Below, one piece after another: positions 25,299-51,039 of a stretch of DNA of 64,000 nt. Below the pieces are notes generated by a model that worked only from the letters and a program-made list of their open reading frames with translations, did not search any database and was not told where the DNA came from. The stretch lies in assembly GCF_006715305.1 (NCBI RefSeq), contig NZ_VFMY01000001.1, positions 4,030,001 through 4,094,000 on the forward strand, in the 5' to 3' direction. The position numbers were made by a program, and so were the translations under genes. This DNA comes from Arthrobacter sp. SLBN-100. GTDB taxonomy: Bacteria > Actinomycetota > Actinomycetes > Actinomycetales > Micrococcaceae. Within the stretch, counting starts at the first letter, position 1, and the number at the start of each line of letters is the position of its first letter.

Positions 25299-25314
25299 GG
25301 GAGTTAGGCACCTG

Positions 25315-26146: not shown

Positions 26147-26192
26147 GGTTCCCCCAAAGCTGTGGTGGTAGTTGCGAGTTTTTCACTTGCAA

Positions 26193-26627: not shown

Positions 26628-26802
26628 ACTGATTCCCCCTTGATGGTTTCGAAAAATTGATGCCCCATGCCGGGGGCTTTTGAGCTCGAGACTTAGCCGG
26701 AGATGGAATTCGCAAGTCGGTTATGGGCTCCTGGACAGCGCCCAGGGGTCTAATGGCCTTGAATGCAGCGGTGTGCTTGCTCCGTCAGGTCCGGGCCGAC
26801 CA

Positions 26803-29256: not shown

Positions 29257-29492
29257 AATGCGGGATTGTCCTTTCCGTACATCCGGAGTCCGGTGTCCAT
29301 GGTGCGGATAGCCGAGGTTGGATCGGAGCCGGCGGAGGCCTGTCGACGTTCTTTGGAGAGATCTGTGCCACGGGTAAACGCAAGATGCCACTGGCCGGCT
29401 GAGTCTTTGTCCAAACCCTTCACAACAAATGCACCCAGACAGGTGCTCTCCGCAAAGCGGCTGTGGATGCAACTTTCGATTGATGTTAAACG
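29253..29492 (-). CDS. Small upstream gene of the operon, apparently 5'-truncated
   Basis: A third frame reads RFAESTCLGAFVVKGLDKDS, AGQWHLAFTRGTDLSKERRQ and MDTGLRMYGKDNPAL, and ends in a TGA whose GTGA overlaps the start of the next gene. That coupling and the balanced composition argue that it was translated. Upstream there is a TAA at 29493-29495 and no good start; GTG inside AFVVKGLD is the only common start codon. It may be a truncated gene or use an unusual start. Confidence 0.4.
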   Translation of the reverse strand, partial: RLTSIESCIHSRFAESTCLGAFVVKGLDKDSAGQWHLAFTRGTDLSKERRQASAGSDPTSAIRTMDTGLRMYGKDNPAL

Positions 29493-29802
29493 TTATTTCG
29501 AACTAGCATAAATGCCCTTGATCTGTAGAAATGCAAGAGTTTCGCAGGAAAGAGGCAAGATTTACGCTTTCCGCTTTGTTCGCTGGAAGCCCTGTCCTCG
29601 TCCCCAGGGTCGCCAAGCTTGCCCCGGTGGCGGCTTATTGCGCGTCACCGTGTCCTTCCATTGGGGGACACCTCCTGCTTCCGCTGTTGCCACAGTGCCT
29701 CGGTGGCAGGATGATCGAAAGTGTTCGGCTCTTGCCGGCCAGACGGGCCGGAAGCACGACGACGTGTGACAGCGTGATGAGTGAGGCGGCGGTGAGCGGG
29801 CC
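29493..29802. other. Intergenic region upstream of the MFS gene
   Basis: 310 bp separating divergent transcription units. Nothing recognised beyond a likely location for both promoters. Confidence 0.4.
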
Positions 29803-31317
29803 ATGACAGAACGCAGCGGGCAGCAGCGGCGGCTGAAAGTATCCGATGTCAACGTCGTCAACCACCGCACGCTGCGGAAAGCGCTGGGCGGGACCATCGT
29901 CGGCAACACGATGGAGTGGTACGACGTCGGTGTGTTCGGCTACCTCATCACCACCATGGGGCCGGTGTTCCTGCCGGAAGCGGACAAGGCAGTGCAGAAC
30001 CTGTTCCTGCTGGGGACGTTCGCCGCCACGTTCATCGCCCGGCCGTTGGGCGGCATCTTCTTTGGCTGGCTGGGCGACAAAATCGGCCGCCAGAAGGTCC
30101 TGGCGATGACGCTCATGCTCATGGCCGCCGCAACCTTCGTTGTCGGCCTGCTTCCGGGGTACGAGGTCCTGGGCCTCTGGGCGGCGGTGCTGCTGGTGGC
30201 CACCAAGCTGGTGCAGGGGTTTTCCACCGGGGGCGAGTACTCGGGGGCCACCACCTTTGTGTGTGAACATGCGCCGGACCGGCGCCGCGGCTTCTACGTC
30301 AGCTTCCTGGACATGGGCAGCTACCTGGGTTTCGCGGCGGGCGGGGCGGTGGTGTCCGCCCTTCAGCTGACCCTGGGCCAGGAGCAGATGGGGGAGTGGG
30401 GTTGGCGCATCCCGTTCCTGGTGGCGGGTCCGCTGGGCATCGTCGCCGTCTACTTCCGGATGAAGATCGAGGAGTCCTCCGCCTTCAAAGCCACGCTGGA
30501 AGCCGAAGCCGTGGCGGCGAAGCGTCCCGGGACCGGAGAAGAGCTCCGCCCCGTGGGCCCGGTGGGCATTGTGAAGGCCCACTGGCGGCCTCTGGTACTG
30601 GCCATGATCCTGGCGGCGGCTGCAAACACGGTGGCCTACGCCCTCACGTCCTACATGCCCACGTACCTGACCAGCAACAAGGGGTACGACGAGGTCCAGG
30701 GGGCGCTGCTGACCCTCCCGGTCCTGGTGGCCATGGCGCTGTGCATCCCCTTCACCGGGCTTCTCTCGGACCGGATCGGCCGCCGCCGCGTGCTGTGGAT
30801 CGGGGCCTTCAGCACCGTGGTGTTCGCGGTTCCCGCGTTTCTGGCAATAGCGGTGGGCAGCGTTCCGGCAACGCTCCTGGGCCTGGCCCTCATCGCCTTC
30901 CCGGTGGCCTTTTCGGTGCCCAACCTCGCCTCGGCGCTGCCGGCGCTGTTTCCCACCGAGCACCGCTATTCCGCCATGGGCATCGCCTACAACCTGGCGG
31001 TGGCCATTTTCGGCGGAACGGCTCCGTTCATCATCGCGGCCCTGATCGAGCTGACCGGCAATGACATGATGCCTGCGTACTACCTCATGGCCGTGGCGGC
31101 GGTTGCCGCCGTGGCCATCCGGTTCCTGCCGGAATCAGCAGGGCGCCACCTGCCCGGTTCCATGCCCAGCGTGGAGTCGGAGGAAGCCGCCCGGAAGCTG
31201 GTGGAGACGCAGGACACCAACCCGTTGCTGGTCCTGGACTCGCTGCCGTTCGAGAGCAGCTTTGAGATTGCACGGGCGTCACACAAGGGGCGGCCCGGGA
31301 AGCCGACGGTGATGTAA
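29803..31317 (+). CDS. MFS transporter, metabolite:H+ symporter (proline/betaine ProP-like)
   Basis: 504 residues, 12 predicted membrane helices. The N-terminal signature LGGTIVGNTMEWYDVGVFGY and the loop-2/3 motif GWLGDKIGRQKVL are diagnostic of the metabolite:H+ symporter family that includes ProP, citrate and shikimate porters. GFSTGGEYSGATTFVCEHAP and RRGFYVSFLDMG match ProP-type osmoprotectant carriers most closely. The charged C-terminal tail (about 455-504) is shorter than E. coli ProP's coiled coil. It probably imports proline, betaine or a related zwitterion. No regulator or enzyme is adjacent, so the substrate is inferred only. Confidence 0.9.
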   Translation: MTERSGQQRRLKVSDVNVVNHRTLRKALGGTIVGNTMEWYDVGVFGYLITTMGPVFLPEADKAVQNLFLLGTFAATFIARPLGGIFFGWLGDKIGRQKVLAMTLMLMAAATFVVGLLPGYEVLGLWAAVLLVATKLVQGFSTGGEYSGATTFVCEHAPDRRRGFYVSFLDMGSYLGFAAGGAVVSALQLTLGQEQMGEWGWRIPFLVAGPLGIVAVYFRMKIEESSAFKATLEAEAVAAKRPGTGEELRPVGPVGIVKAHWRPLVLAMILAAAANTVAYALTSYMPTYLTSNKGYDEVQGALLTLPVLVAMALCIPFTGLLSDRIGRRRVLWIGAFSTVVFAVPAFLAIAVGSVPATLLGLALIAFPVAFSVPNLASALPALFPTEHRYSAMGIAYNLAVAIFGGTAPFIIAALIELTGNDMMPAYYLMAVAAVAAVAIRFLPESAGRHLPGSMPSVESEEAARKLVETQDTNPLLVLDSLPFESSFEIARASHKGRPGKPTVM

Positions 31318-36335: not shown

Positions 36336-36801
36336 CTGTGTATTTCACCGGGCCATGTGGTCCGGACGGGCTCCGGGACCATACGGAAGTTTGGCACCTG
36401 GCCAGCGGGCCGCCGTCGTAAGTCATGACGGCGGCCCGTCGGCTTTGTTGCTGAGGATTGCCTTGGGTGCGAATTATTGCGGACACTGCCTGGCCGCGGA
36501 GGGCGAGATCGTAAATAAGTTGCTGAACTTCCCGCTCTTGGCCGCTAGTTCCGGGGGGCGGGACTTGGGAAGCCGTGAGTCGTTTGCCTGGAGGAGCAGG
36601 AATGGGCCGACGGGCCGCGGGCGATGCTGCGGATATCGGTTCTTTCACCCCAGGTGGTCTAGCTGGGCTTATAGGCTGCGCTGCCTTTGCTTCATCACAG
36701 CTATCGCCCTCCGATGCCCCCTACCCGAACTTGTAATGAGCGTGAGGTGACGCGCGGACACTCCGTCGTGAAGTGAGGACGCAGTCTTGGATGGAAGCCG
36801 C
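36336..36801. other. Intergenic region with repeated hairpin
   Basis: 466 bp. It contains the hairpin at 36401-36446, a homologue of that at 25315-25359. No gene is supported between 36450 and 36801. Confidence 0.4.
36401..36446 (+). terminator. GC-rich hairpin terminator (copy of 25315 element)
   Basis: GGGCCGCCGTC (36407-36417) pairs with GACGGCGGCCC (36427-36437), extended by GCCAGC/GTCGGC, and is followed by TTTGTT. Flanks (GGCACCTG before, GATTGCC after) also match the copy at 25305-25380. Confidence 0.7.
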
Positions 36802-37470
36802 TCACCTGGCCGAGCCTTCTATCGGGAGCCCTGCCGCCTTCCATTCGGGGAAGCCTTCCTCGAGCCTTGCGGCGACGCGCCCTTCATTCGTGAGCAGCCG
36901 CACGGCCTCATCGGCATACAGGCAATATGGTCCGCGGCAGTAGGCAACGATTTCGCTCGCCTGGGGAACCTCGCGCAGTCGGGACTTGACCTCCGGCAAG
37001 GGCACGGAAATCGCATTTGGGATATGTCCGGCCTCGTATTCGGGCAGCGGCCGCACGTCCAGCACTACGACGTCGCCCTGCCGAAGCCGCAGAAGCAGTT
37101 CGTCGCGCGTGATCATGCTCAGCTCGGCACGATCGCCGACGTAGGCACGCACCAGCTCGCCCAGCTCCCCGGGGTGGGCTTCGGCTGTTTCGCGAAGTGC
37201 CCTCCATAGCCGCTCCACTGCCGGGCTGGCCAGGGAATAGTAGATCCGCGTCCCCGAACGCCGGGACGAGGCGAGGCCGGCCCGCAGCAAGCGCTGCAGG
37301 TGCTGGGATGTGTTGGCGGTACTCTGGTGGATCTCTCCGGCGAGCTCCTCGACCGACCGCTCGCCCTGGCCAAGGACATCGATCAGCTGTGCCCGCCGGC
37401 CGTTCCCCAAGGCCTTGGCAGCTTCTACGAGGGCGTCGTAAAGCGCATCCTTAGCCTGCTGGTCGCCCAC
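36802..37470 (-). CDS. ArsR-family regulator fused to a rhodanese domain
   Basis: 222 residues from GTG 37470 after AGGAGGGG. Residues about 12-95 are an ArsR winged helix (AAKALGNGRRAQLIDVLGQG, STANTSQHLQRLLRAGLASS, RRSGTRIYYSLAS). Residues 120-218 are a rhodanese domain with aspartate VVVLDVRPLPEYEAGHIPNA and active-site Cys178 in VAYCRGPYC, plus Cys183. This fused family senses sulfane sulfur or reactive sulfur. It is divergent from a 4TM protein across two palindromes and probably represses it and itself. Confidence 0.88.
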   Translation of the reverse strand: MGDQQAKDALYDALVEAAKALGNGRRAQLIDVLGQGERSVEELAGEIHQSTANTSQHLQRLLRAGLASSRRSGTRIYYSLASPAVERLWRALRETAEAHPGELGELVRAYVGDRAELSMITRDELLLRLRQGDVVVLDVRPLPEYEAGHIPNAISVPLPEVKSRLREVPQASEIVAYCRGPYCLYADEAVRLLTNEGRVAARLEEGFPEWKAAGLPIEGSAR

Positions 37471-37483
37471 TCGCCCCTCCTAT

Positions 37484-37546
37484 TCAAGAGATCTCTTGAC
37501 AAGCCTACCGTCATGGGTTTCTTATTCAAGTATCTACTTGAATAAG
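37484..37546. promoter_or_regulatory. Two palindromic operators for the ArsR-rhodanese regulator
   Basis: TCAAGAGATCTCTTGA (37484-37499) is a perfect 16-bp palindrome. CTTATTCAAGTA (37521-37532) and TACTTGAATAAG (37535-37546) form a perfect 12-2-12 inverted repeat. Both contain TTCAAG/CTTGA half-sites, and they lie between the divergent regulator and 4TM gene. ArsR dimers bind such sites; binding here is inferred. Confidence 0.75.
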
Positions 37547-37553
37547 AAAGGAA

Positions 37554-38057
37554 GTGGTGGTCGTGCCCACCATGCAAACTCCCCAACGGCAACAGTCCAA
37601 CCTCCGGACAGGAGCAGCTCTCATGGCGCTGGCCGGCCTGGCTTTCGTCGGGTATGCCGTGATCTTCCTGGTCATGAACTTCACGGACGCCTTCCTCGAA
37701 CTGGGCATCGGGCCCGATCAAGTGGACAAGGGCAAGGCGGAGATCGAGGCGTTCAGCCCGCAGCTGTATCACTACATCAGCCATCTTCACATCGCGGTCA
37801 GCGGCTTCATTGCTGCGACCGGGCTGGCTGTTGCAGGCCTTTCCTGGTATGGGGTGCGCCGCGGAGAACGGTGGGCTTTCGTTACTGCCGTTATTGTCCC
37901 GGTCGTCGCACTCGCGGTGGCTCTTCCCGCGCACTACCCGTGGGGTCTGGCCACGCTGGGGCACCTCGGCCTGATCTACCTCGCCGTCCTCATTTTCCTG
38001 GTAGGGGTTGTGGCAGCCTACAGCGGACTCCGAAGCCACGCGGTGACAGACCACTGA
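37554..38057 (+). CDS. Four-TM membrane protein under ArsR-rhodanese control
   Basis: Up to 167 residues. GTG 37554 lies too close to the AAAGGAA site; GTG 37563 or ATG 37572 (MQTPQRQQSN) fit better. Four helices: ALMALAGLAFVGYAVIFLVM, ISHLHIAVSGFIAATGLAVA, WAFVTAVIVPVVALAVALPA, and LIYLAVLIFLVGVVAAYSG. The first loop carries FTDAFLELGIGPDQ and HYISHLH has two histidines that could bind metal or sulfur compounds. Family not named. Single-gene transcript ending in a terminator. Confidence 0.75.
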   Translation: MVVVPTMQTPQRQQSNLRTGAALMALAGLAFVGYAVIFLVMNFTDAFLELGIGPDQVDKGKAEIEAFSPQLYHYISHLHIAVSGFIAATGLAVAGLSWYGVRRGERWAFVTAVIVPVVALAVALPAHYPWGLATLGHLGLIYLAVLIFLVGVVAAYSGLRSHAVTDH

Positions 38058-38371
38058 CACTCACGCGCCTGGCTGATCCCGTAATCCAGCCAGGCGTTCT
38101 GTCATGCACCGGGCGAATCAGGCCATCGTCCAAGTTCTGTGGAAAAGCCTTCTACAGAATGTCGTCTCAGTCTTAAGTGGCCGAACGCTCCCTGGACCTG
38201 CAGGAGTAGCAGGAGAAGTCCTGAGAGCCGGCAGGAAGATTGGGGCCATTAAAAACTTTGCTGTTCAAACCGCCTGCGACCACAGTGAGGTTGCCAAGGC
38301 GGTGGATGCGTTTGTCACGCTCCGTCTATCGGACAACATCGTCACGGACACCCCCAGTTCCTGCGCCTGAT
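38058..38371. other. Gap after the 4TM gene
   Basis: 314 bp. The first part holds the terminator at 38066-38105. The rest (an 88-codon plus-strand frame, 38104-38370) has no family features and probably is not a gene. Confidence 0.4.
38066..38105 (+). terminator. Rho-independent terminator
   Basis: CGCCTGGCTG (38066-38075) pairs with CAGCCAGGCG (38087-38096), followed by TTCTGT, 9 bp after the 4TM gene's stop. Confidence 0.8.
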
Positions 38372-38408
38372 TGATTTTGTTCCGGTTCATCCCGGGATGC
38401 GGGAGTAG
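38372..38408 (+). repeat. 3' tail of a second copy of the 11700 gene
   Basis: 37 bp ending in a TAG match 11990-12026 (end of the small unknown gene) with five mismatches; both encode DFVPV-PGM-E before the stop. The rest of the gene is absent. It marks the left edge of the mosaic block. Confidence 0.65.
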
Positions 38409-38427
38409 CGACCGTCGAGGCTACTTA

Positions 38428-39160
38428 TCAGGACACCCCCGCTTTCGCCGCCTGCTTGGCGTTCATCCACTCGCTCATCCAGGGAGCCCGGACGCTGGAG
38501 GTGATCCGGCAGTCGGCCACGAAGGTTCCCTTGGCGCCGCCATCGATCCAGTCCGTGAGCGCCGAAAGGTCCGCCAGCGACCGGATGATCGCCGACTCGG
38601 CGCCGAGCGCCCGGGCAATCCCGCTGAAGTCCACCTCGGGAATCAGCATCGGCTTTTCGGTCAGGCCCTGAGAGCCGTACTGATGGATTTCGGCTCCATA
38701 GGCGGCATCGTTGTAGATCACCACGATGGCGCTCTTCGCCGCACCGATGAGTGATTCGAGGTCGGCCAGACCCATCAGGAAACCGCCGTCGCCGGATGCC
38801 AGCACCAGAGTCCGGCCGTCCTCCACCGCAAGGGCCGCCCCTACGGCGCTGGCGAGGCCCAGCCCAATGGCTTGGAACGGGGTCCCCACCATCACCAGGT
38901 CCTGCGGCCGCGGGATGTTCCAGTACATGGGTGCCCAACCCATGAAGTGCCCTCCATCTTGGACCACCGTGCGGCGCTCCGGCAGCACGGCATCCAGCGC
39001 CATGGCGAGGGCGCGCGGGTCCAGCCGGCCGTCCGAGGTGTCGTCGGAGCCTGGGTGGTGGGCCGGTCCTTCGGCCAGCCGCTTGCGGGCTTCCGCGCGC
39101 CAGGCATCCGCCGCCGCCTCACCCTTCAGCAGCTGGAGCAGACGCCCCGCGGCGGCCTTG
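38428..39160 (-). pseudogene. TPP-dependent enzyme, 3' part only (paralogue of 51040-52698)
   Basis: Encodes the last about 243 residues of an acetolactate-synthase-like TPP enzyme: DGGHFMGWAPMYWNIPRPQD, LASGDGGFLMGLADLESLIG, and IVVIYNDAAYGAEIHQYG, ending at TGA 38428-38430. The DNA is nearly identical to 51063-51775. The match stops at about 39158, where sequence switches to an HNH nuclease on the other strand, so the N-terminal 300 residues, with the cofactor-binding glutamate, are missing. The GDG...ND TPP motif is intact but the protein cannot fold as an enzyme. Confidence 0.9.
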
Positions 39161-39719
39161 ACCTACACCAGCAGCGTCCCGTGCACGGTTAAGACCGGCG
39201 TGCTCGCGGATCCGTACACGGGCGCCACCATTCACTTTGTCCGCGGCACCACCACGAGCAGCGCCGTGCAGATCGACCATGTGGTGGCGCTCAGCGACGC
39301 GTGGCAGAAGGGCGCGCAGCAGCTGACCGCGGACGTGCGGACGGCGTTCGCGAACGATCCGCTGAACCTCCAGGCGACCGACGGTCCCACCAACATGCAA
39401 AAGGGCGACGGCGACGCGGCCACCTGGCTGCCACCCAGCAAGGGCGTCCGCTGTGAGTACGTCGCGCGGCAGGTTTCCGTGAAGGCGAAGTACAGCCTTT
39501 GGTTGACGCAGGCTGAGCACGACGCGATCGCAAACATCCTCGCAGGCTGCCCCGGCCAGCGGGGCCCCGGCCTCCGTTCAGGCGGCGGCCCCCGCTCCCG
39601 TCTACTACGCTAACTGTGCAGAAGTGGTGGCCGCCGGAGCTGCGCCGTTGTATGCCGGTACCCACGGCTATCGCTCCCGGGTGGACGGTGACGGTGACGG
39701 GGTGGCCTGCGAGGGATAA
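39161..39719 (+). pseudogene. HNH-Excalibur nuclease, 5'-truncated and frameshifted (paralogue of 23864-24672)
   Basis: Begins abruptly at TYTSSVPCTVKTGVLADPYT, then VRGTTTSSAVQIDHVVALSD, AWQKGAQQL, and NLQATDGPTNMQKGDGDAAT, shifts frame near 39565, and ends with YYANCAEVVAAGAAPLYAGT and DGDGDGVACEG. The signal peptide is missing. Unlike the other copy, the HNH region here is uninterrupted and the TAA is absent (KAKYSLW). The two copies carry different lesions. Confidence 0.85.
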
Positions 39720-39773
39720 TTGCCGGGCTCGGGCGCCATTGACAGCCCCAAAGGCCGGCGGGACGCTCGACTC

Positions 39774-40947
39774 ATGCCCCGCGGGAGAACGTCACGTTTC
39801 CTGAACATCCAGCCTTTTGGCATCGAGAAGGCGGCGGCCGCTGCCGGCGATGACCCTGAAGTGCTGGGGGTGGAGAACCTGGACACGGACATTGCCCCGC
39901 CGCCTTCCGCAGTGGCCGTGACCCGCGAGGCTGTCGGCCGCCGGGATGCGAACAGCTGGCTGCCCTTCACCGGACTCGGGCAGTTGCGTGAAGCGGTTGC
40001 GGACCAGCTCAGCGCGCAAACAGGCCGCGCTTATGACCCCGCAACGGAGGTGGCCATCACGGGCGGCGCGCTCGCCGGCCTTCTCAGCACCCTTCTGGCC
40101 ACGGTGGATCACGGCGACGAAGTGGTAGTCACCGATCCGACGTACGCGGGGTTCATCAACCGGATCAGGCTCGCCAACGCGGCGCCCGTCTTCCTGCCGC
40201 TCATGGTGGTCGACGGCCACTGGCGGCTGGACCTGGAAGGATGGCTCCGGCCGTCACAAAAAAGACGCCTGCCCTGCTTCTGATGAGTTCGTCCATGCCG
40301 TCCGGGCATGTGTTCAGCGATGCCGAATGGAACGCCGTCGCGGAAGCCTGTTCGGCGGCCGATTGCTGGTTGTTGTACGACGCGGCCATGGACAGGATTC
40401 TCTTCGACAGCCTGCAGTCCCGCCACCCGCCGTCGTTGGAGCAGTTGGCGGAGCGAACCATCACGCTCGGCGGAGTATCCAAGAACTTCCGGATGATCGG
40501 GTGGCGCGTCGTTGGGCGGTGGGACCGGCAGAAGTGATGCGGGATGTGGCGCTTGCGGCAACGTACAACACCACGGTGGCCAGCGGCTTCGGACAACTTG
40601 GCGCCGCCGCCGCGCTGTTGGCTTCCAAGGACGGCGGCCAGGGCGACGGCGTGGCCACTGCGGTGGCGGACTGGCAGGCACGGCGGGACTTGATTCTGCG
40701 GGAACTGGAGGGGCTCCCGGTGGTCAAGCCCGACGGCGGGTGGTCGCTCCTGGTAAACGCGAGCGCCCTCGGATTGAAAGCGCCCGAACTTGCGCAACGG
40801 CTGTTCCAGCACGCACGGATTGCCGCGACCCCGATGACGCAGTGGGGACAGCAGGTGGCACCGGACTACGTCCGCTTGGTCTTCGCCACTGAGCGGCTGG
40901 AGCGCCTGAGCGGAATCGGGGACCGCTTCGGCGCGGCGCTGCGGTGA
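39774..40947 (+). pseudogene. PLP-dependent aminotransferase, two frameshifts (paralogue of 56177-57352)
   Basis: ATG 39774 begins MPRGRTSRFLNIQPFGIEKA. GGALAGLLSTLLATVDHGDE and VVVTDPTYAGFINRIRLANA follow. A shift at about 40235 moves to TKKTPALLLMSSSMPSGHVF and WLLYDAAMDRI; a second near 40510, just after the PLP-lysine motif TLGGVSKNFRMIGWRV, moves to the last frame, ending GDRFGAALR at 40947. It is a class I/II aminotransferase by the P-Y-GF and SKN--MIGWR motifs. The upstream 36 bp also match the other copy, including ATTGACAGCCCCAAAGGCCG. Confidence 0.85.
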
Positions 40948-40961
40948 GCCCAGCGGCATGA

Positions 40962-41265
40962 TCACCAGGTAACAGTTCCCGCGGCCCCGTGCACCGTGGC
41001 GCTCTGCAGCGCGGGCAAACTGTCGGGCCGGGGCCTGCTCCGGATCCTCAACCCGCAGATAGTTCAAGATCATCCCCCTGGCTGCCCCTGATCCCGGCCA
41101 AATGGCACCGCTAAGTGCCGCAGTTCCAGGACCCTGATGGTGGTCATGTTGTGCGGAAGCCCCGCAGGACCGCCTCCAGCTCGCGCGGCTTGGCAATCCC
41201 GCGCAGCAGCCTGCGGGCTGCGGCGAGCATCAGGTATCCCATGGAAGGGGCGGGCAGGGTGAACT
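40962..41265 (-). pseudogene. Rph/PEP-synthase-like gene remnant with internal deletions
   Basis: Three blocks match the gene at 12119-14875 in order: its last about 45 bp (stop TCA at 40962-40964), a piece around 12860-12925, and a piece around 13145-13290 (VLRG-PHNVTTM region). The sequence between them is deleted. The neighbour order, small unknown gene tail then Rph 3' end, is the same as at 11990-12119. Confidence 0.8.
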
Positions 41266-41631
41266 TGATGAGCACACCACCACCATTACCGCCACCGACG
41301 TGTAGGCCGGACGTTCGCGGAGACCCTGACGTTCCAGGTCGCTGGGTTGCGGCTAACGCTGTCCAACTAAAGGCGGGCAGGGGAGCCCTGGAACGAGGTC
41401 TGTGCCAGGGCTTTCGGTGGACGTACGACGGCGGCGCTTGGGATGGGTGCACGGGCGCAGTCATCCCGCGCTGCTGGAAAGAGGGTTCCGTGATTCGACC
41501 GAAGAGCGTCGCGGTAACGTCACCGTAACGGAGCCTGTCGTGTACTGGCCACAGGGGCTGCATACGAGTAGCGGCATACTCCGTGAGCCGCTGAAAAACC
41601 TCGTATGTCGCTGAGCGGGAGGGGAAACGCT
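41266..41631. other. Gap before the tyrosinase locus
   Basis: 366 bp. No convincing gene or repeat. It should hold the promoter of the gene at 41632. Confidence 0.4.
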
Positions 41632-42402
41632 ATGCCTCAGCAGCACGGGCACGAGCACGGCGGACACGGCCATGGCGGGAACGGCACGATAGGTGTCCAC
41701 GGCATGTTGCTGTTTGGACAGGACACCCTTTACCTGTCACACCTGCCGATGTTCCAGAGACCGCACAATTTTCAGGTGATCCTCGAGGTGGGGTTCGATG
41801 ACGCCGCGGACGAGGTCCTTCGGGCAGACCGCCATTCCAACGCTGACGGCCTGTACACATTCGAGCCCGCCAAGTTCCACATCACCGAGCTCGACCCTAG
41901 GAGAGCGGGCCCGGAACGTTCCTCTGTTGAAGGGGTCATTCACCAGGGTCATTTCGAGCGCGGAGGCCAGGCTCTTGCCCGCGCGGTGGCCGCGGTCCGC
42001 AATGTCGTCTATTTCCAGGAGTTGGACCCGACGGCCGAACACGCGTCGGACCAGGAGTTGACGTATCTTTGCTTTGGACGCGCTGGACAACTGCACCTCG
42101 CCCATCGGATAACGGCCAGTCCGGACTTCGACCAGGTCCTCGTTGCGCGGCTGGTCCCTGGCACAGCGACGGACCAGGCTGGACGGCCCATTGGCGAGGA
42201 CGTGAGCGGGCAATTCAACCAGGCAGTGCCGGTGGCATTCCGGGATCACGCCGACACCCCGCAGTCCCGGCTGGCTCCCAAAGAGACTGCCGAGGCAAAT
42301 TTCTTCCAGACCGTCGGGCCGAAGGGGTTCCACGGCTTCCGTGTCCAGGTGGAGATCGAGCGGGAGCTGTACTTCGAATCAGGTGAGCTTGGGTCCGCCT
42401 GA
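41632..42402 (+). CDS. Unknown protein with His-rich metal-binding N-terminus, tyrosinase-linked
   Basis: 256 residues from ATG 41632 after GGGAGGGG. The N-terminus PQQHGHEHGGHGHGGNG has six histidines in 15 residues, a likely Cu/Zn/Ni-binding tail. The remainder (GVHGMLLFGQDTLYLSHLPM, FQRPHNFQVILEV, and GFHGFRVQVEIERELYF) belongs to a conserved uncharacterised family. No signal peptide. First gene of a run leading to the tyrosinase; by analogy with Streptomyces MelC1, a His-rich copper donor, it may deliver copper, but it has no similarity to MelC1. Confidence 0.75.
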   Translation: MPQQHGHEHGGHGHGGNGTIGVHGMLLFGQDTLYLSHLPMFQRPHNFQVILEVGFDDAADEVLRADRHSNADGLYTFEPAKFHITELDPRRAGPERSSVEGVIHQGHFERGGQALARAVAAVRNVVYFQELDPTAEHASDQELTYLCFGRAGQLHLAHRITASPDFDQVLVARLVPGTATDQAGRPIGEDVSGQFNQAVPVAFRDHADTPQSRLAPKETAEANFFQTVGPKGFHGFRVQVEIERELYFESGELGSA

Positions 42403-42425
42403 GCAGGAACGTTACGGAGGCAGAG

Positions 42426-42833
42426 GTGAACCAGGACAGCCCGTTCGAAGGACTCTGGAGCTACAGGAGTTTCAGGAACGACCCGGACCTGTCTACGGAG
42501 TTCAATGCCCTGAGGTTTGGGGCGGGCACCCTGAACCTGATGACCCCGGAAGTCGGCCACGTGGCGGGCAGCCTCGGGGGTGAAGGCTGGCGTCTGGATC
42601 TGACCGGAGGGTACGACTACGGCAACCCGTTTGCCCTGCGGTTCCAAGGCTTAGGCGAAATCGGCGGTGAACTGTGGGTCTATGACTACGTGGGATACCT
42701 GGTGCCTCTGTGGCCCCACGGCGTGGACCAAATACCTGCCATTACGGGGTCTGTCATCCGGACTGCCCCACACTCGAAAGGCCAGGCGACGGCTGGCTAC
42801 GTGGCGTCATTCATCGCCGTCAGACAGTCCTAA
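42426..42833 (+). CDS. Small unknown protein in the tyrosinase locus
   Basis: 135 residues from GTG 42426 after a GGAGGCAGAG site, 23 bp behind the His-rich gene. FEGLWSYRSFRNDPDLSTEF, LNLMTPEVGHVAGSLGG, GYDYGNPFALRFQGLGEIGG and DYVGYLVPLWPHGVDQIPAI suggest an all-beta, lipocalin- or avidin-like barrel, rich in aromatic residues. Twenty bp before the tyrosinase start, with its own AGGAGG. Function unknown; a binding or chaperone role for the tyrosinase or its product is inferred from position. Confidence 0.7.
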   Translation: MNQDSPFEGLWSYRSFRNDPDLSTEFNALRFGAGTLNLMTPEVGHVAGSLGGEGWRLDLTGGYDYGNPFALRFQGLGEIGGELWVYDYVGYLVPLWPHGVDQIPAITGSVIRTAPHSKGQATAGYVASFIAVRQS

Positions 42834-42853
42834 AACACGAGGAGGTCACAGCC

Positions 42854-43840
42854 ATGCTTGTCCGTAAGAACGTCCGTTCCCTGTCCACCTCGGAACGGCA
42901 GGCCTTCGTCAATGCGCTGCTCGAGTAAAGGCCAGAGATGAATATGACAAGTTCGTGCACTGGCACCACCATGTCATGCAACCGGCGGTCCTGCCGTTGG
43001 AACCGCCTGACGCCAACTACCGCAACGGTGCACACGGTGGCCCCGCCTTTCTGCCGTGGCATCGGGAATTCCTGTACCAGCTTGAAACAGCGCTGCGCGC
43101 CATCGATTCCTCGGTGTCTGTTCCTTTCTGGGACTGGACGGAAGACAGCACCGACCCCGCCGCGTCCCCGGTCTGGAATGAGGACTTCATCGGCGGCAAC
43201 GGGCTGGAGGACGATGAATGGCGCGTGGCGACGGGGCCCTTTGCCTTTGTCAACGGCCATTGGCCGGTCCCGGACTACATGGAGGAAGGCCTCCCCGGCC
43301 CGGGCCTGAAACGAAGCTTCGGGCAGTTCATTGGCGCTGTGCCGACGCCAGCAGATCTGCAGCTGGCCCTGCGCGAAGCGTTCACGACACCCCGCCTTAC
43401 AACCCCAGCCCCTTCACCATCGGATTCCGGAACCGGCTGGAGAGCTTCATTACCCAGCGTGGCGACAGCAGGGTCTCCACCACGGGCTCCCAGCTGCACA
43501 ACCGGGTCCACGTCTGGGTAGGGGGAAACATGCTGCTGATGACCTCACCCGACGACCCGGTGTTCTTCCTGCACCATTGCTTTATCGACAAGGTCTGGGC
43601 CGACTGGCAGGAAATACAGAAGATCAACAATCCGGACGCCGCGCCGCACTACGCCCCGCTGCGGGACGGACCCACCGGCCACAACGCCGATGACGACATC
43701 CGCCCGGTGCCCACACCATCCGGCAGGTCCTGGACATCGCCGCGCTGGACTACACCTACGAACAGCCGCCCAGCAGCCGACCTCTGGCCGACATGACCAG
43801 GAGCGTCCATCCGGGCCGGAGCCCCTTCTGGGTGGATTGA
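42854..43840 (+). pseudogene. Tyrosinase (type 3 copper), three frameshifts
   Basis: ATG 42854 after AGGAGG. MLVRKNVRSLSTSERQAFVN is followed by a shift near 42925, KARDEYDKFVHWHHHVM and GGPAFLPWHREFLYQLE (CuA histidines). A second shift near 43385 leads to IGFRNRLESFITQRG, QLHNRVHVWVGGNMLLM and DDPVFFLHHCFIDKVWADWQ (CuB histidines), and a third near 43715 to the tail ending at TGA 43838. All six copper-ligand histidine regions are conserved, so the lesions are recent. No signal peptide. Tyrosinases oxidise phenols to quinones (melanin). Confidence 0.85.
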
Positions 43841-44034
43841 TCTGGACCCCGACCTTCCGGCGGTAACCTTCCCCTGCCCGACAATAACGCCGCAGTAACG
43901 GGCTGATTGGAGATTAACGACTGGGGGTTCTTTTGCCTCAGGAGGGAACGGAAGCCTCAGCAGAAGTTGACTGATCAAGAACCTCAACTCTTCATCGCAA
44001 TCACCGTGCATCTACAGAAAATGGAGGAAAACTG

Positions 44035-45000
44035 ATGGCCACTCTTGAACCTCAGACGCAACATGCAATTCGCGAGATCGTCAGGATCTTAGGTCAATTC
44101 ACCCAAGACCAGCAGTCAGAGAGCAACGGTCAAGTCGGCTCAGCCGCAGGCTGCCGCATCATGCCGCTGCCCCAGCGACTGTGGGGAAAGGGGGCCGAAG
44201 TCGCAGCCCGGATAAATCCCGTCAATGCCCCGTTGCAGGAACCTCAGGGCAGTTACCCATCGATCGACGAACCGATGCGGCTCACCCTGACAACGTCAAA
44301 GTACTGGGGACCGCGGCCAAAAAAGCTATCTGTAAGCTTCATGGAGACCACGCCAGCGGAATTGCGTGCGCGCATCATCAGCCATTTGAATGCCTGGTCG
44401 CAGTCGGCGGGCATCTCGTTCCACGGGACCTCAGGAACGGGCGATGTCCGTATCTCCCGGGGGCCCGGGGGCTACTACTCCTATCTCGGGACGGACATCA
44501 AGCTGATTCCAACCAACCGTCAGACAATGAACCTCCAAGGGTTCACCATGAACACATCAGAATCCGAGTACCGGCGCGTTATCCGTCACGAAGCGGGTCA
44601 CACGCTCGGGTTCCCCCATGAGCACATGCGCAAGGCACTGGTTGACCGGATCGATCCGGCCAAGGCCTACGCCTATTTCCTCAGGACCCAGGGCTGGGAC
44701 AAGACAACTGTTGATCAGCAGGTTCTAACCCCGCTTGGAGGCAACTCAATCATCGGTACCGAGCCGGACCAGGACTCCATCATGTGCTACCAGCTTCCCG
44801 GCGAGATCACTTACGACGGTCAGCCGATCCGCGGCGGGCTGGACATCAATGCGACAGACTATTTGTTCGCCGGCACGATTTATCCCAAAGTCCTGCATGC
44901 GTCAGCGGAGAGCATGGAAGACTCGTCAAGCGGCAGCATCGAGGGTGGCGCAAATGACTGGGATCCCGTGGAGGACGTGAAGGACATTTCATATGAGTAA
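44035..45000 (+). CDS. Astacin-like zinc metalloprotease (metzincin)
   Basis: 321 residues after a GGAGGAAAACTG site. The zinc site RHEAGHTLGFPHEH has His185, His189, His195 and catalytic Glu186, the HExxHxxGxxH metzincin motif with the extra HE typical of astacins (HExxHxxGFxHE). The Met-turn is SIMCYQL near residue 251. The N-terminal 100 residues form a propeptide-like region and the first part of the fold; the C-terminal tail is acidic (ASAESMEDSSSGSIEGG, DWDPVEDVKDISYE). No obvious signal peptide. Lies 194 bp after the tyrosinase and may process it or a matrix protein. Confidence 0.85.
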   Translation: MATLEPQTQHAIREIVRILGQFTQDQQSESNGQVGSAAGCRIMPLPQRLWGKGAEVAARINPVNAPLQEPQGSYPSIDEPMRLTLTTSKYWGPRPKKLSVSFMETTPAELRARIISHLNAWSQSAGISFHGTSGTGDVRISRGPGGYYSYLGTDIKLIPTNRQTMNLQGFTMNTSESEYRRVIRHEAGHTLGFPHEHMRKALVDRIDPAKAYAYFLRTQGWDKTTVDQQVLTPLGGNSIIGTEPDQDSIMCYQLPGEITYDGQPIRGGLDINATDYLFAGTIYPKVLHASAESMEDSSSGSIEGGANDWDPVEDVKDISYE

Positions 45001-45043
45001 GCCGTGATGGACGCCGGTACCTTTGCACGCGAGGGGTCCGCGA

Positions 45044-45349
45044 GTGAACCGGCTGATTGACATCCAGCCCGGCCTGCAGGATCTCCCCGCGGAGCTGGTG
45101 ATCGGCGTCGGCGACGTCCTCAAGTTCTCCGCCACGGGCGCTCACCTGAGGGCCGGAACATCCCTCGAACTTGTTGGGATACTGCAGGACTGTGTCGTGG
45201 GCACTGACGGGCGGGTTATCAGCCCGATGGGTGCGCCCGGTACGGTTCTGTGGCGTGCCGTTGCGTCCGGGCCGGCGGTGCTGGATGTCGTGACAGGCGA
45301 CCCCTGGCAAGGACCCGTCACGTGGAGCATAAACGTGCGGGTGGAGTAG
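45044..45349 (+). CDS. Small unknown protein following the protease
   Basis: 101 residues from GTG 45044 with GAGGGG 7 nt upstream. The sequence PAELVIGVGDVLKFSATGAH, LRAGTSLELVGILQ, GAPGTVLWRAVASGPAVLDV and TWSINVRVE looks like a single Ig/beta-sandwich (for example a protease-inhibitor-like chagasin-type fold), but similarity is weak. It lies 43 bp after the protease gene; a protease inhibitor or cofactor is one possible role. No export signal. Confidence 0.55.
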   Translation: MNRLIDIQPGLQDLPAELVIGVGDVLKFSATGAHLRAGTSLELVGILQDCVVGTDGRVISPMGAPGTVLWRAVASGPAVLDVVTGDPWQGPVTWSINVRVE

Positions 45350-45399
45350 GCGGCGGCCGCGACCGGAGGTGCGGGACCTCGGCTTCCGCGCTCGCGTGC

Positions 45400-45885
45400 C
45401 TTATTCCTCCGCGCGCCGGTGCCGGTGATGCAGCTCGTACCTGCCGAACACATGAGGAGGTTTCCCCGAGTGGCCGAATTTACCGCGGAGGACGTCCGCA
45501 AGCTCGTCCAGGGCGCGTGCAGCATGCGGCTGGCGAACTGGAGTTCCCGCCTTTCGCTCCGCTGCGCCTGGGATGCCAGCTGCTGGACGTAGTCCACCGT
45601 GGCCGGGAGGGAATCGCGCTGCTCCACTTCCCGGAAGTAATAAGTTTCGTGGAGCGCCACTAGGTCCATGCTGACCGTGGCAACGTTGCTGGCAAGTGAC
45701 TCCAGCAGCCCCGCCGCATGCCGGGGATCCATGGCGGCCAGGCCCTCGGGTCCCTTCGCCTCGCGGAACAGGTTCAGCTGGTGGGCAAGAGCCCGGCGGC
45801 GATTCAGGCCGGGGTAGGTCTGCAGGATCCAGGACACCGTGGCGGTGAGCAGCCCGAAGCCGGTGACGGCCTGCAGGGCGGCGAC
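45400..45885 (-). pseudogene. Potassium-channel C-terminal fragment (paralogue of 22503-23393)
   Basis: Encodes only the cytosolic tail: SWILQTYPGLNRRRALAHQL, GLAAMDPRHAAGLLESLASN, LVALHETYYFREVEQRDSLP and a frameshifted end near 45520. The pore with TVGFG is missing. DNA resembles 22510-22985 but is clearly diverged. At about 45885 it joins a GDPD fragment on the same strand. Confidence 0.8.
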
Positions 45886-45889
45886 CCGC

Positions 45890-46290
45890 CGGACAGGAAC
45901 TCTGGGTCACCGGCGGCGGCGGGCGCGGTCTCCTGGCACTTGGCTGCCTGGATGGTGTCGTCGTGCCAGACGATCACCTTGCCGTCCTCTGTCAGGTGGG
46001 TGTCCAGTTGCAGGGTGGTCACGTCCAGCGCCAGTGAGTTCGTGAACGCGGCCAGGGACTCCTCGGTCCATTCGCCGCGGCCGCCGCGGTGGCTCTGCAG
46101 GTCGAACGAGCCGTTGCGTTCGTTCATTTTGAGCTCGGAGGTGGCGGCTCCGGCAGTGTTCGACGACGGAGTGCCGGCCTCGTCACTGGGGGCGGCGACG
46201 GCGGGGCTCGCCATGGTGGCGATCAGGGCGGCGGCTGCCGCGGCGGTCAGGACGGCGGCGGCTACAGCAGAAGGGAAGAAATGCCCTAGT
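45890..46290 (-). pseudogene. Glycerophosphodiester phosphodiesterase N-terminal fragment
   Basis: Alanine-rich signal peptide (AAAAALIATMASPAVAA), then FDLQSHRGGRGEWTEESLAA, FTNSLALDVTTLQLDTHLTE and DGKVIVWHDDTI: the HRG, E-T/S and HD motifs of secreted GDPD enzymes that hydrolyse glycerophosphodiesters. The frame is truncated at about 45890 where the K+ channel tail begins. The 5' end lacks a clear start codon. The C-terminal two thirds of the enzyme are gone. Confidence 0.8.
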
Positions 46291-46343
46291 TTGGCTCCGG
46301 GCTTTCAGTGCTGTTGGGGTGTGAACCCGCCCGCCCTACACCA

Positions 46344-46376
46344 CTAAGGCTCCGTTCAACGGGAACGGAGCCTTAG
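46344..46376. terminator. Perfect 14-bp hairpin
   Basis: CTAAGGCTCCGTTC (46344-46357) pairs with GAACGGAGCCTTAG (46363-46376) around 5 nt. It lies 17 bp beyond the stop of the minus-strand oxidoreductase gene and before the GDPD fragment. No T tract. Confidence 0.7.
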
Positions 46377-46393
46377 TCAGCCAGCTGCCTGGA

Positions 46394-47323
46394 TCAGGAA
46401 TCCTGGTCTACGGCGACCACGATCTTGCCGCGGGTATGCCCTTCCATGTTGGACCGGAAGGCATCAGCGGCTTTGTCCAGCGGGAAGACCTCGGCAACTT
46501 CCACGCGGATTTTCCGGCTGTCCACCAGGGCGACGAGTTCCTGCAGGTTGGCTCCCACCGGATTCACCCACATCCAGTCGCCGCCGTGCTCTTCCACTTC
46601 ACTGTCGGCGATCGAGGCATGCCGGCCTCCTTCGGCCAGCACGGCCAGCGTCGCCTCGAGGTTTCCGCCCACGAAATCGGCAACGACGTCCACACCGTTA
46701 GGACGCAGCTCGCGAATGCGCTCTGCGAGCCCGTCTCCGTAGGCAACCGGCTCGGCTCCCAGGGAGCGGAGGAACTGATGATTCTTCTCCGAGGCAGTGG
46801 CAATGACACTCGCGCCCATGACCAAAGCGATCTGGATGCCAAGGGAGCCGACGCCTCCGGAACCCCCGTGGATCAGGACAGTTTCGCCGGACTTCAAGCC
46901 CAGCCGGTTGAGAACCTGGTAGGCGGTCAGGCCGGCAAGCGGCAGGCCTGCCGATTCGTTCCACCCGAGCGAGGCAGGCTTCCGGGCCAGGAGCCGCTCC
47001 GGCAGCGCGATGTACTCGGCAAAGCTTCCACCGTGGACGTAGTCCTTGCGGCCGTAGGCAATGACCTCGTCGCCGGACTGGAACTGCCGGGCGTCGATTC
47101 CCACCGACTCCACAACCCCTGCTACGTCCCAGCCGGGGATGGCGGGAAACTGCAGATCCATGACGGCATCCAGGTACCCTGCCATGATCTTCCAGTCCAC
47201 CGGGTTCACCGCCGCTGCCTTCACTTTGACCAGGACCATTCCCGGCCCGACTTTCGGCATTGGCTGATCGCCAAAGTCGAGGACATCAGGGTTTCCGTAT
47301 GAGCTGTAAGTGATTGCCTTCAT
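46394..47323 (-). CDS. NADP-dependent quinone oxidoreductase-like protein (MDR superfamily)
   Basis: 309 residues from ATG 47323; GTG 47332 is possible. MKAITYSSYGNPDVLDFGDQ and KAAAVNPVDWKIMAG are the catalytic-domain start. IPGWDVAGVVESVG and LIHGGSGGVGSLGIQIALVM give the zinc-free quinone-oxidoreductase signature with the Rossmann motif (GGSGGVG). The C-terminal VFPLDKAADAF...GHTRGKIVV is typical. There are no zinc-ligand cysteines, so it is a QOR/zeta-crystallin-like reductase of quinones or enones. Isolated gene, no neighbours that tell its substrate. Confidence 0.9.
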   Translation of the reverse strand: MKAITYSSYGNPDVLDFGDQPMPKVGPGMVLVKVKAAAVNPVDWKIMAGYLDAVMDLQFPAIPGWDVAGVVESVGIDARQFQSGDEVIAYGRKDYVHGGSFAEYIALPERLLARKPASLGWNESAGLPLAGLTAYQVLNRLGLKSGETVLIHGGSGGVGSLGIQIALVMGASVIATASEKNHQFLRSLGAEPVAYGDGLAERIRELRPNGVDVVADFVGGNLEATLAVLAEGGRHASIADSEVEEHGGDWMWVNPVGANLQELVALVDSRKIRVEVAEVFPLDKAADAFRSNMEGHTRGKIVVAVDQDS

Positions 47324-47395
47324 GCCTTCCACAATGGCACAGTCGTGCTTCGCTATTCCGAACCCCGGCGCAAAGTGCTCTATCGCAAGGCCAGG

Positions 47396-47713
47396 TTAGG
47401 CCAGGCAGCGAATGCAGCCGTGCTCCAACCCGGGCTGTCTTACGGAGCTTGGCAGGCCTGCAGGAACTCGCCTCGTCGCATCACCTCCTGCTGGTCGCTT
47501 CCCCCCGCTAACGCGTCCTGCTGCAGACTGGCAGGCTAAAACGCTGTCGGCCCACGCGTCGCCAGCCGCCTGATTATGCGTCCAAGTTCCAACGAAGAGG
47601 CCCGACGTCAGCAATGCCAGTAGGAACACCAGATAACGACCCGTCGTGGGGACAGGGTAGGCAAGGACGCTAACTCGACTCTTCGTCAGTTCATCTGGAC
47701 TGGCCGGGCTCAT
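47396..47713 (-). CDS. Small single-TM protein of unknown function
   Basis: 105 residues. One membrane helix (YLVFLLALLTSGLFVGTW, about 28-45) after a cytosolic PVPTTGR stretch. The outer part (HNQAAGDAWADSVLACQSAA) is soluble with one cysteine; the last 30 residues are low complexity and may be out of frame. It follows the next gene by 23 bp and may be its partner. Confidence 0.4.
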   Translation of the reverse strand: MSPASPDELTKSRVSVLAYPVPTTGRYLVFLLALLTSGLFVGTWTHNQAAGDAWADSVLACQSAAGRVSGGKRPAGGDATRRVPAGLPSSVRQPGLEHGCIRCLA

Positions 47714-47736
47714 AATGACCTCTACGGGTATCTGGG

Positions 47737-48078
47737 CTAAGAGAGGTCTCCGCGTGCATTAACTAACAATGCTCCGACGATGGTGTTCCCCACTAACGCG
47801 GTAGTCTCCTCAGGAAGTTTGAGGCGTCGACCTTCCCTAAGCGCTGCTTCATGGACCCTTTGCATTTCTTCGTCGCTGAGGCGGATGGCGGACTGTGGCG
47901 CTTCTGTCTCAGGCGGCTGGTCACCGGAAGCGAATATGCGGCGGAAATAGGAACCAAGGACTGATTTAGCCTCGTCTTTAAAGGTCTCGGCCATGAGGTC
48001 TGCCAAGAAGTGCACCACTTCTCCGCAGATTGCCAACGCCGCAGGAGCTAACAGAGCCAGCTCAAGGCCGAAGCCCAT
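47737..48078 (-). CDS. Small protein of unknown function
   Basis: 113 residues from ATG 48078. The hydrophobic start GLELALLAPAALAICGEVVH is followed by FLADLMAETFKDEAKSVLGS and a soluble helical C-terminus (IRLSDEEMQRVHEAALREGR). It begins 31 nt inside the end of the previous gene, so the two are coupled. Not recognised. Confidence 0.55.
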   Translation of the reverse strand: MGFGLELALLAPAALAICGEVVHFLADLMAETFKDEAKSVLGSYFRRIFASGDQPPETEAPQSAIRLSDEEMQRVHEAALREGRRLKLPEETTALVGNTIVGALLVNARGDLS

Positions 48079-48389
48079 CGAATCGTCTCGCTACGCGGGT
48101 TTAGTACGGCTCCTGGATCGGCAAAGAATTCATCGGCAACCTCGTCAAAGACCATTAGCTCGTCCGGCGAGGTGCTTTCAAGGGCCAACCGCGCAAGCTC
48201 CGTCGTGAACTCCCGCTGTGCACCGGAGTCCAGTCGCAGTTCCGGATTTTGCATCAGGAGTTCCCTCCGCAATTTCTGGGCGTCATTTAGGCCCAACTTC
48301 TCTTGGATCGATCGCTGCCCTTCATCAGCCTGCCGCCTCACAATTACTTGTGCGTTACTGCCTGTCCATCCGCGGGATACACGGAGCAC
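48048..48389 (-). CDS. Small soluble protein of unknown function
   Basis: Up to 113 residues from GTG 48389, which has no good ribosome site; a shorter form from MQNPELRLDSG is possible. The core (IQEKLGLNDAQKLRRELLMQ, AQREFTTELARLALESTSPD, and VFDEVADEFFADPGAVLNPR) is acidic and helical. Overlaps the downstream gene by 31 nt in another frame. Not recognised. Confidence 0.5.
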   Translation of the reverse strand: MLRVSRGWTGSNAQVIVRRQADEGQRSIQEKLGLNDAQKLRRELLMQNPELRLDSGAQREFTTELARLALESTSPDELMVFDEVADEFFADPGAVLNPRSETIRWASALSWLC

Positions 48390-48474
48390 CCCTACCCATA
48401 TGTATCCGCCGCATCGTGTCTTAAGGGGAAGCAGGATCGTCTGGCATGCCTATCTCCTCTGTGTCCGTTTGAGG

Positions 48475-48830
48475 AAGCTACCCCGCCACCGCCGCCGTCG
48501 CCGCCCACTTGGCGAGGCTGGGAAGCTTCCTGTTCTGCCGCGTGAGCAGGCACGGCAAGGACGACCGGTTCGATGAGCTCAAGCCTTCGTTCTTCCGTTT
48601 CCTGAACACGTGGACGCTGCAGGGGCTCTGGGTGGTCCTCACCGCGGCCGCCGCCTGGATTGCGGTTACGTCCACCACCCGGGTGGGGCTGGACTGGTGG
48701 GCGCTTTGCGGCTTTGTGGTGTGGGCTGCCGGCTTCGGCATCGAGATTGTGGCGGACAGCCAGAAGGGCCGTTTCAACGCGAACCCGGCGAACAAGGGGA
48801 AATTCATTTCTACTGGCCTGTGGGCAGGTA
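48475..48830 (+). pseudogene. DUF1295 / steroid-reductase-like membrane protein fragment
   Basis: LARLGSFLFCRVSRHGKDDR, ELKPSFFRFLNTWTLQGLWV, CGFVVWAAGFGIEIVADSQK and ANKGKFISTGLW are characteristic of DUF1295 proteins. The expected continuation (the S-RHPNYFGE motif) is missing after GLW at about 48827, and the N-terminal helices before LARLGS are incomplete. It is cut at both ends. Confidence 0.75.
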
Positions 48831-49406
48831 GCCGTCCCGGCGACGCAATGGCGGTTTCGGAGCGAAAAGGATTCCGGACTTGAGCCGCTTAGTCCACAGC
48901 AACTCGTGAAGCGAACGGAGTTTCGGACTGTCCCGATCCGCGTCGGGCCTGGTCTTCGCCGGCCTGTCGGTCTTGTAGTCAAACGAGATATCGAAGACCG
49001 GCAACGATTCGGCATCTCGGGACCGTTCATCGGCACGGTATCGTCCATCGGACCGTCCATGGCTTTCCCTCAAACTATCGTGCAGCTAGTGAAGCGATGC
49101 TATTTGCTCACGGCACTGAAGGATTGGTTCTTGAGGCAACCTGCGCGAATTCTTTGTCACACCCCGCCTACGACTTCCAAAAGCCGAATGCCGCCGTCGT
49201 AAAAAGTCCTAGTTGCCGCCGGTATGGCCGTCCTGTGGGAAGAACAAACTCCGTGGATACCGAATTGCGAAGGGCCTCGCGTCCTGACTGCTTCTGTACC
49301 GTCACTTGGCAATAACGCGGGAGTAACAGCTCCTCTCGTACAGTAGCCGCACTGTCCCCGGAGCGACGGGGTCCTCACGTGGAGAGTTGGCCGAAGGAGC
49401 CCCAAG
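48831..49406. other. Gap of unclear origin
   Basis: 576 bp with no recognised gene. A possible degenerate frame (TVPIRVGPGLRRPVGLVVKR, 48925-48985) is not assignable. It includes the promoter of the gene at 49407. Confidence 0.35.
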
Positions 49407-50726: not shown

Positions 50727-51039
50727 GGTATGTGAGCGGCTGGGGTGAAGACGTTTCTAACTGGCACTAACTGCCTACCTTGGGCTGGTCCTCATGCAAG
50801 GGGGTTTTGTCCCTGGTTTGTCCGCGTTGGACACCGCTCCGCAGATACATGGACAAGATTGGCGGAAAGGAACACAAAGCGGGCAGCTGATCTTGACGAA
50901 GTCGAGGCTGTCGTCATCTTTGCCCATGTTCGCGATGCTAAGCAGGGTGACCGCGTCACGCAGCCGAGGCTGTCGGTGTCAGCTTCCACGGCTGGACATG
51001 ATGCCCGACCTGCTTGAGTCCCGTCCTGCCCGCGGTTAT
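50727..51039. other. Intergenic region, nothing recognised
   Basis: 313 bp between the lone unknown gene and the stop of the TPP enzyme. No hairpin or coding signal that I would support. Confidence 0.4.

Follow-up and report, generated by a model that had tools for sequence, protein, structure and literature searches.

The minimal mobile elements of Neisseria are found as different cassettes between the same conserved genes. The part of the study of Oliveira et al. (2017, PMC5635113) that concerns us describes horizontal-transfer hotspots that lack mobile elements and show recombination in the core genes beside them. For Escherichia coli, the sections of PMC3240628 considered here report 14 sequenced clones in which a circular molecule had entered by a single crossover, leaving 109-950 bp of the target gene end in duplicate. 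Here we analyze a stretch of 64,000 nt from Arthrobacter sp. SLBN-100 (contig NZ_VFMY01000001.1, positions 4,030,001-4,094,000, forward strand; assembly GCF_006715305.1), referred to below as the window, in which five broken gene pieces lie in a row at 38371-41273. They include the 3' part of a thiamine pyrophosphate (TPP) enzyme gene, whose full copy forms the right border of an interval of variable gene content. We give a probability a little above even (about 0.55) to the reading that this block is the decayed seam between two stacked versions, or alleles, of one hypervariable interval. As we read them, the pieces would be scars of alternative versions of the region that were stacked at the border gene by homologous and illegitimate recombination and then decayed.

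The block and its broken genes

The pieces, the joint between two of them and the longer gene copies in the window are listed here; identities of TPP', HNH', AT' and Rph' are from self-comparison, all in direct orientation.

38371-38409, plus strand: tail of a small gene, 13 codons (87% identity over 39 nt to 11989-12027; own-genome E-value 2.9e-5)
38428-39159, minus strand: TPP', the 3' part of a TPP-enzyme gene with the 5' end absent (PF02775, TPP_enzyme_C; 38439-39159 is 96.5% identical to 51054-51774)
39153-39164: joint of TPP' and HNH', both genes without their 5' ends (from the alignment of either side)
39164-39718, plus strand: HNH', an HNH-Excalibur gene without its 5' end and with a frameshift (PF07510, GmrSD_C, HNH type; 83.6% identical to 24117-24671)
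39733-40947, plus strand: AT', an aminotransferase gene with two single-base frameshifts (Aminotran_1_2 profile; 39733-40957 is 88.6% identical to 56136-57362)
40962-41273, minus strand: Rph', what remains of an Rph-like phosphoenolpyruvate-utilising gene, namely its 3' end and parts of its interior, with an internal deletion and without the N-terminal part (41087-41273 is 79.8% identical to 13108-13295)
51040-52698, minus strand: complete TPP-enzyme gene, which bounds the variable interval on the right
24096-24671, plus strand: second HNH gene of the interval, broken
56136-57362, plus strand: other aminotransferase copy, with an in-frame stop, in a second variable site
12119-14875, minus strand: unbroken Rph-like gene

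TPP' amounts to the 3' 44% of the TPP-enzyme gene, and each of the five pieces is oriented as its own homologue. A preliminary description had recognized a mosaic of truncated pieces here, and self-comparison, own-genome searches and Pfam profiles bear this out; the near-identity of TPP' to the window's TPP gene, the absent 5' end of the HNH-Excalibur piece, the frameshifts of AT' and the internal deletion of Rph' were all seen as it had stated. Positions 1-60000 of the window contain seven self-similar pairs (3545 bp aligned), compared with 4, 1, 1, 0, 1 and 4 in six control windows of 60 kb from the same genome and with four in the stretch from -26999 to 33000. Because all 11 pairs of the control windows are direct too, the direct orientation is weakened as evidence of mechanism.

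TPP' and HNH' lie on opposite strands (minus and plus, respectively) and both lost their 5' ends at a single joint (39159/39164), which fits one end-joining or one deletion between the two genes. The preliminary description had proposed a search for microhomology at the junctions; at the TPP'/HNH' joint the homologies to TPP and to HNH orthologues overlap in their BLAST ends by about 7-10 nt at most, which in a GC-rich genome is no evidence of it, and this candidate was rejected. Among the matches listed from 206 genomes of the genus, none other spans this joint. Such uniqueness would be expected of an assembly artefact, an explanation that is scarcely credible given that the host genome of 4.94 Mb is in only two contigs and that misassembly does not produce copies diverged by 3.5-20%.

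The succession of the small gene and the Rph-like gene is found twice more in or near the window, as well as in four of the five relatives compared, and the middle pieces may, as the preliminary description suggested, have been inserted into a duplicate of this junction. With none of the 25 NCBIfam models listed does the Rph-like gene reach the curated cut-off, and therefore no drug-resistance function is claimed for it. An intact HNH-Excalibur gene is situated about 25 kb to the left of the window, and the Excalibur domain was detected on this paralogue.

Affinities of the individual pieces

Only TPP' is clearly closest to the window's own gene; the other pieces lie at about equal distances from the window copies and from genes of other species. 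Among 78 TPP genes the resident gene ranks first for TPP', and the next-best match is at about 90% or less. The likeness is patchy: 38450-38640 is 100% and 38843-39155 99% identical to the resident gene, whereas mismatches accumulate at 38770-38842 (13 of 73) and 38425-38449 (10 of 25). At some of the differing sites TPP' has the common base, and at others the full gene does. Such mixed sites are as expected if two alleles had been partly homogenized by gene conversion.

HNH' is 84% identical to the window copy, its top-scoring match among the genomes searched, and 85% identical to that of comparison genome G130; over its first ~170 nt, 20 other genomes outscore the window copy among the matches listed. 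AT' is 88.6% identical to the window copy and 88%, 87% and 86% identical to those of G029, G025 and G145, respectively, and Rph' is 80% identical to the window copy and 81-82% to some other genomes. As the identities to the window copies thus range from 80 to 97%, the pieces of the block were probably not made at one time. The window's HNH (24117) and aminotransferase (56136) copies are themselves broken by frameshifts or in-frame stops. In the aminotransferase tree the window's copy joins that of G029 (support 93/92) before AT', the alternative topology having a p value of 0.064 in the approximately unbiased (AU) test, and in the HNH tree a clade of HNH' and the window's HNH gene has an AU p value of 0.49; neither is rejected.

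These affinities bear on the possibility that unequal recombination within one genome copied, truncated and joined four neighboring genes. That TPP' is far closer to the resident TPP gene than to any of 77 others, that all the pieces are direct, and that the trees tolerate clades of HNH' and of AT' with their window counterparts all fit such local copying. So does the marginally highest score of the window's own copies for HNH' and AT' among the genomes searched, which at the same time counts against a seam of stacked versions. Against local copying stand the distances of HNH', AT' and Rph', about equal to the window copies and to genes of other species, the better match of the other genomes noted above to the first part of HNH', the grouping of the window's aminotransferase with that of G029, and the broken state of two of the would-be sources. 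On balance we regard local copying as unlikely. The preliminary description, which took the pieces for copies of four window genes, is in this respect only partly right.

Truncated TPP pieces in other strains

Close relatives of the TPP enzyme are encoded at 78 loci, nearly all from Arthrobacter, Pseudarthrobacter or their kin and one from Cryobacterium. We surveyed 77 named loci, 67 of which have at least 9 kb of downstream DNA; L116 was dropped, having no full-length TPP match. L098, a second TPP gene of Arthrobacter sp. 9AX without about the first 60 codons, entered the survey as a locus of its own; the full copy, L043, is on the same record at a distance of ~35 kb.

Truncated TPP pieces downstream of the full gene were observed at 11 of the 77 loci (12 pieces, all direct), so that about one in seven TPP loci of the genus carries such a downstream scar. 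In 10 of the 11 loci a piece ends at most 11 nt from the TPP 3' end. The pieces differ in their 5' ends, and the 12 downstream pieces measured range from 63 to 732 nt. L070 has a 39-nt TPP piece downstream, and any TPP piece, with the window's gene as query, is found at 15 of the 77 loci. The core genes 1.7-5 kb upstream, covered in 73-76 loci, have given rise to no such downstream piece. Upstream and downstream DNA are linked by a further 17 repeat pairs, one of them inverted; none begins in the core genes about 1.7 to 5 kb from the TPP 3' end, and six begin 5-6 kb upstream, where the second variable site lies. Some TPP pieces are instead located upstream of the gene: L083 (3296-3791), with two of three inverted, departs most clearly from the pattern of direct downstream pieces.

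At none of the 10 loci with a 3'-end piece is the resident TPP gene, among the 78 genes, the one closest to the piece (ranks 4 to 49), and therefore piece and gene look like different alleles; a point against making much of this is that several of the other-strain pieces are short (63-110 nt) and the ranks resolve little.

A strict flank test asked whether a piece is followed, within 120 nt, by sequence that lies within 120 nt after a full TPP gene in another strain. It was applied to 12 pieces, namely those of the window, of G029 and of 10 named loci, and was passed by five of them, representing four events; of the control positions 76 of 2376 passed, and of the full genes 33 of 85. This gives a binomial tail of 2e-5, which rises to 3e-4 when L050 and L110, nearly identical downstream of TPP, are treated as one event. 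Under looser limits six of the 12 pieces pass, including that of the window (via G029), along with 171 of 2026 controls and 31 of 85 full genes. The L055 piece, with a flank of only 98 nt, could hardly pass, and a 42-nt internal piece of L076 was left out. G145 and G007 were dropped as duplicates of named loci; G025 and L058, probably one genome, were both kept, which makes the 33 of 85 and the control figures slightly high. An initial version of the test, which accepted matches within 3 kb of TPP, was abandoned because it let through too many control segments (52 of 66 and 40 of 66).

These results also bear on an ancient in-genome tandem duplication of a large segment, from Rph to the aminotransferase, followed by many deletions and without any foreign DNA. 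This is consistent with the direct repeats and with the spread of the longer copies over 12-57 kb, and internal deletions are indeed seen elsewhere, in the TPP piece of G029 and the Rph gene of G017. However, the TPP pieces of other strains are alleles unlike the resident gene, several with the flanks of other strains, and duplication alone gives neither foreign alleles nor foreign flanks; moreover, the window copies differ greatly in identity. We hold this course of events to be quite unlikely.

Recombinases and signs of mobile elements

The preliminary description saw no transposase nearby, and we concur: none of the 30 open reading frames (ORFs) of the window that were tested contains a recombinase or transposase domain, and profile searches of the own genome with PF00589, PF00665 and PF00239, the three families searched genome-wide, gave no match in 4.00-4.10 Mb and none between the first HNH gene and the window end. 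The corresponding intervals of five relatives yielded a single rve match, in G029, and in G017 a weak resolvase remnant beside TPP. This weak serine-recombinase remnant, at G017:C1:1097047-1097235, lies directly downstream of TPP and is without a relative in the 86 other downstream regions compared, among which a few genomes are represented twice. The window has no tRNA and no inverted repeat pairs of at least 40 nt, shorter ones not having been searched. Rather than an att-type signature, the repeated TPP stretch is 721 nt long and inexact, and the own interval has no phage-integrase or resolvase match. The whole block was not found in plasmid or phage records, where only partial, distant matches were obtained (9 of the 12 listed fall on the HNH piece).

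An integrase, serine recombinase or insertion sequence that uses the TPP 3' end as its site would explain why the pieces in 10 of 11 loci have that end as their fixed edge, and the G017 remnant and the rve match in the G029 interval could be taken as its traces. Such an element is nonetheless most improbable in view of the empty profile searches from the first HNH gene to the window end, the solitary nature of the G017 remnant, pieces of up to 732 nt with differing 5' ends, and the lack of both a tRNA in the window and a plasmid or phage record of the whole block.

In five different contexts (56128-57362, 39733-40947, G029, G025 and G145) the homology of the aminotransferase unit has a common start, a TTGACA-like box, and runs to the stop codon or slightly past it. 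Cassette borders were considered for this unit and rejected, as selection on promoter plus gene explains the common ends and no common motif was shown.

The variable interval and its proposed history

The own interval extends over 76 kb, from the first HNH gene, ~25 kb left of the window, to the TPP 3' end. Gene content beside the conserved genes differs strongly: five relatives cover just 12-27% of the interval, whereas the core to the right of the TPP 3' end, up to 55980, is covered to 96-99% by the same five. Segments of at least 200 bp in common with these relatives number 71, of which 41 are collinear and 30 displaced; the strand is kept in 28 of the 30 displaced segments, which derive from 16 distinct stretches (14 on the same strand) and are not independent. 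The aminotransferase gene lies inside the interval in G029, G025 and G145. In the window it also occupies the second variable site (55980-57447), the flanking genes of which are adjacent in G145, and in some other strains genes are repeated between this site and the TPP-side interval. The short-range shuffling by unequal recombination envisaged in the preliminary description is thus only partly sustained: unequal or illegitimate recombination is the likely means, but the interval is variable across the genus and TPP pieces recur elsewhere.

Two further units of the interval are relevant to its history:

36780-38172: ArsR-rhodanese regulator and divergent small gene (from profile search and comparison with relatives)
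46343-47417, minus strand: zinc-type dehydrogenase unit

The first is found in G029 ~0.6 kb downstream of the full TPP gene (1.39 kb at 94%) and otherwise at scattered positions in the genus, with some match, many partial, in 64 of 206 genomes. A 32-nt segment between its genes (37518-37549) also matches itself inverted. The second unit lies 1.5 to ~11 kb downstream of TPP in 5 of 10 comparison genomes (G025, G145, G017, G011 and G007). As both are near TPP in relatives, the window has two stretches of TPP-adjacent type, with TPP' to the right of the first and the full TPP gene to the right of the second.

TPP' and the full TPP gene flank 39160-51040, with TPP' truncated at its 5' side and an illegitimate joint at the truncation; this is the arrangement called for by addition through a single crossover. 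We infer the donor, the circle and the order of events as follows. TPP' would mark the former place of the TPP 3' end, i.e. of the interval border, so that the left version would run from sequence further left through 36780-38172 to TPP', and the right version from HNH' through AT', Rph' and further sequence to 46343-47417 and the full TPP gene. DNA of a related strain, extending from inside an HNH gene to inside TPP, would have been added by recombination at TPP. In the best-fitting form, a linear fragment of ~12 kb had its ends joined, HNH to TPP (39159/39164), and entered by a single crossover in TPP, which would yield one full TPP gene and one 5'-truncated copy. Alternatively, a tandem stack followed by one deletion would give the same picture. 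TPP' and TPP might afterwards have been partly homogenized by gene conversion, with HNH', AT' and Rph' decaying.

Recombination at the border gene was examined through pairwise-distance correlations among six segments at 72 loci. The TPP 3' third has the lowest correlation with three neighboring core genes and the TPP 5' third (0.54-0.67), while the TPP 5' third or middle and the same core genes correlate at r 0.67-0.80; the TPP 3' third and the TPP middle reach r 0.82. Against the permease, the interval for the TPP 3' third (0.51-0.67) is just below that for the aminotransferase-type core gene (0.68-0.86). These border correlations point in the expected direction, toward which they lean and no more.

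Several observations weigh against a seam of stacked versions. Three of the four other segments have correlation intervals that overlap with that of the TPP 3' third. The window and G029 pieces fail the strict flank test, and the window passes the looser one only through the unit at 36780-38172, which is itself mobile. The order of the right version (HNH'-AT'-Rph'-...-TPP) matches no single relative compared, and a donor strain with an unbroken HNH-to-TPP fragment of such content was not found. A late in-genome duplication would likewise account for TPP' and TPP being nearly identical. None of the relatives is a good match for the 3' end of TPP', G029 agreeing with both TPP' and TPP at 48 of the last 60 nt. 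Finally, upstream TPP pieces, some of them inverted, occur in L042, L083 and L094 (30 nt, inverted).

Elsewhere in the window, 15000-30000 is sparsely coding. Partial-profile matches are found for a beta-lactamase-family ORF (18369-18938) and an APH-family ORF (19241-19768), and a tyrosinase-family ORF (43218-43796; region 42955-43796) overlaps an ORF in another frame and is possibly broken.

Comparison with known systems

Many bacterial hotspots are without recognizable mobile elements, and gene gain at them is argued mainly from recombination signals in the flanking genes. We tentatively suggest, though we would not be surprised to be wrong, that truncated 3' copies of the border gene are a natural, readable record of how whole versions of a hotspot were taken up and added one after another, with each scar representing one event and combining another lineage's allele with a matching flank. 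If this is true, single-sided addition, and not clean replacement, would be a common route of growth for hotspots free of mobile elements. The visible scar of a truncated border gene with a foreign flank would be a countable footprint, searchable at any hotspot, that tells addition from replacement. In the literature searched we found neither truncated border-gene copies with foreign flanks described as scars of additive uptake nor Arthrobacter hotspots; the recurrent border-gene scar is new to us, and its footprint is possibly general.

The locus resembles the minimal mobile elements of Neisseria in having different cassettes between the same conserved genes, and differs from them in its apparently stacked versions and broken border genes. 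With the E. coli events, as far as the sections of PMC3240628 considered here describe them, it would have in common one homologous crossover combined with one illegitimate joint, and the range of 109-950 bp reported there holds 9 of the 12 downstream TPP pieces. Homology-facilitated illegitimate recombination proper, as presented in those sections, involves a deletion and usually microhomology of 3-10 bp, neither of which is established here; that system is, moreover, a laboratory plasmid conjugation in E. coli, whereas ours is a natural chromosomal interval. The closest likeness in setting is to the hotspots in the part of Oliveira et al. (PMC5635113) drawn on above: gene turnover beside conserved genes is fast, no recombinase of the three families is present in this genome's interval, and the flanking core gene may show weak signs of recombination. 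Unlike in those hotspots, as there described, the versions here seem to have been added side by side, leaving truncated copies of the border gene.
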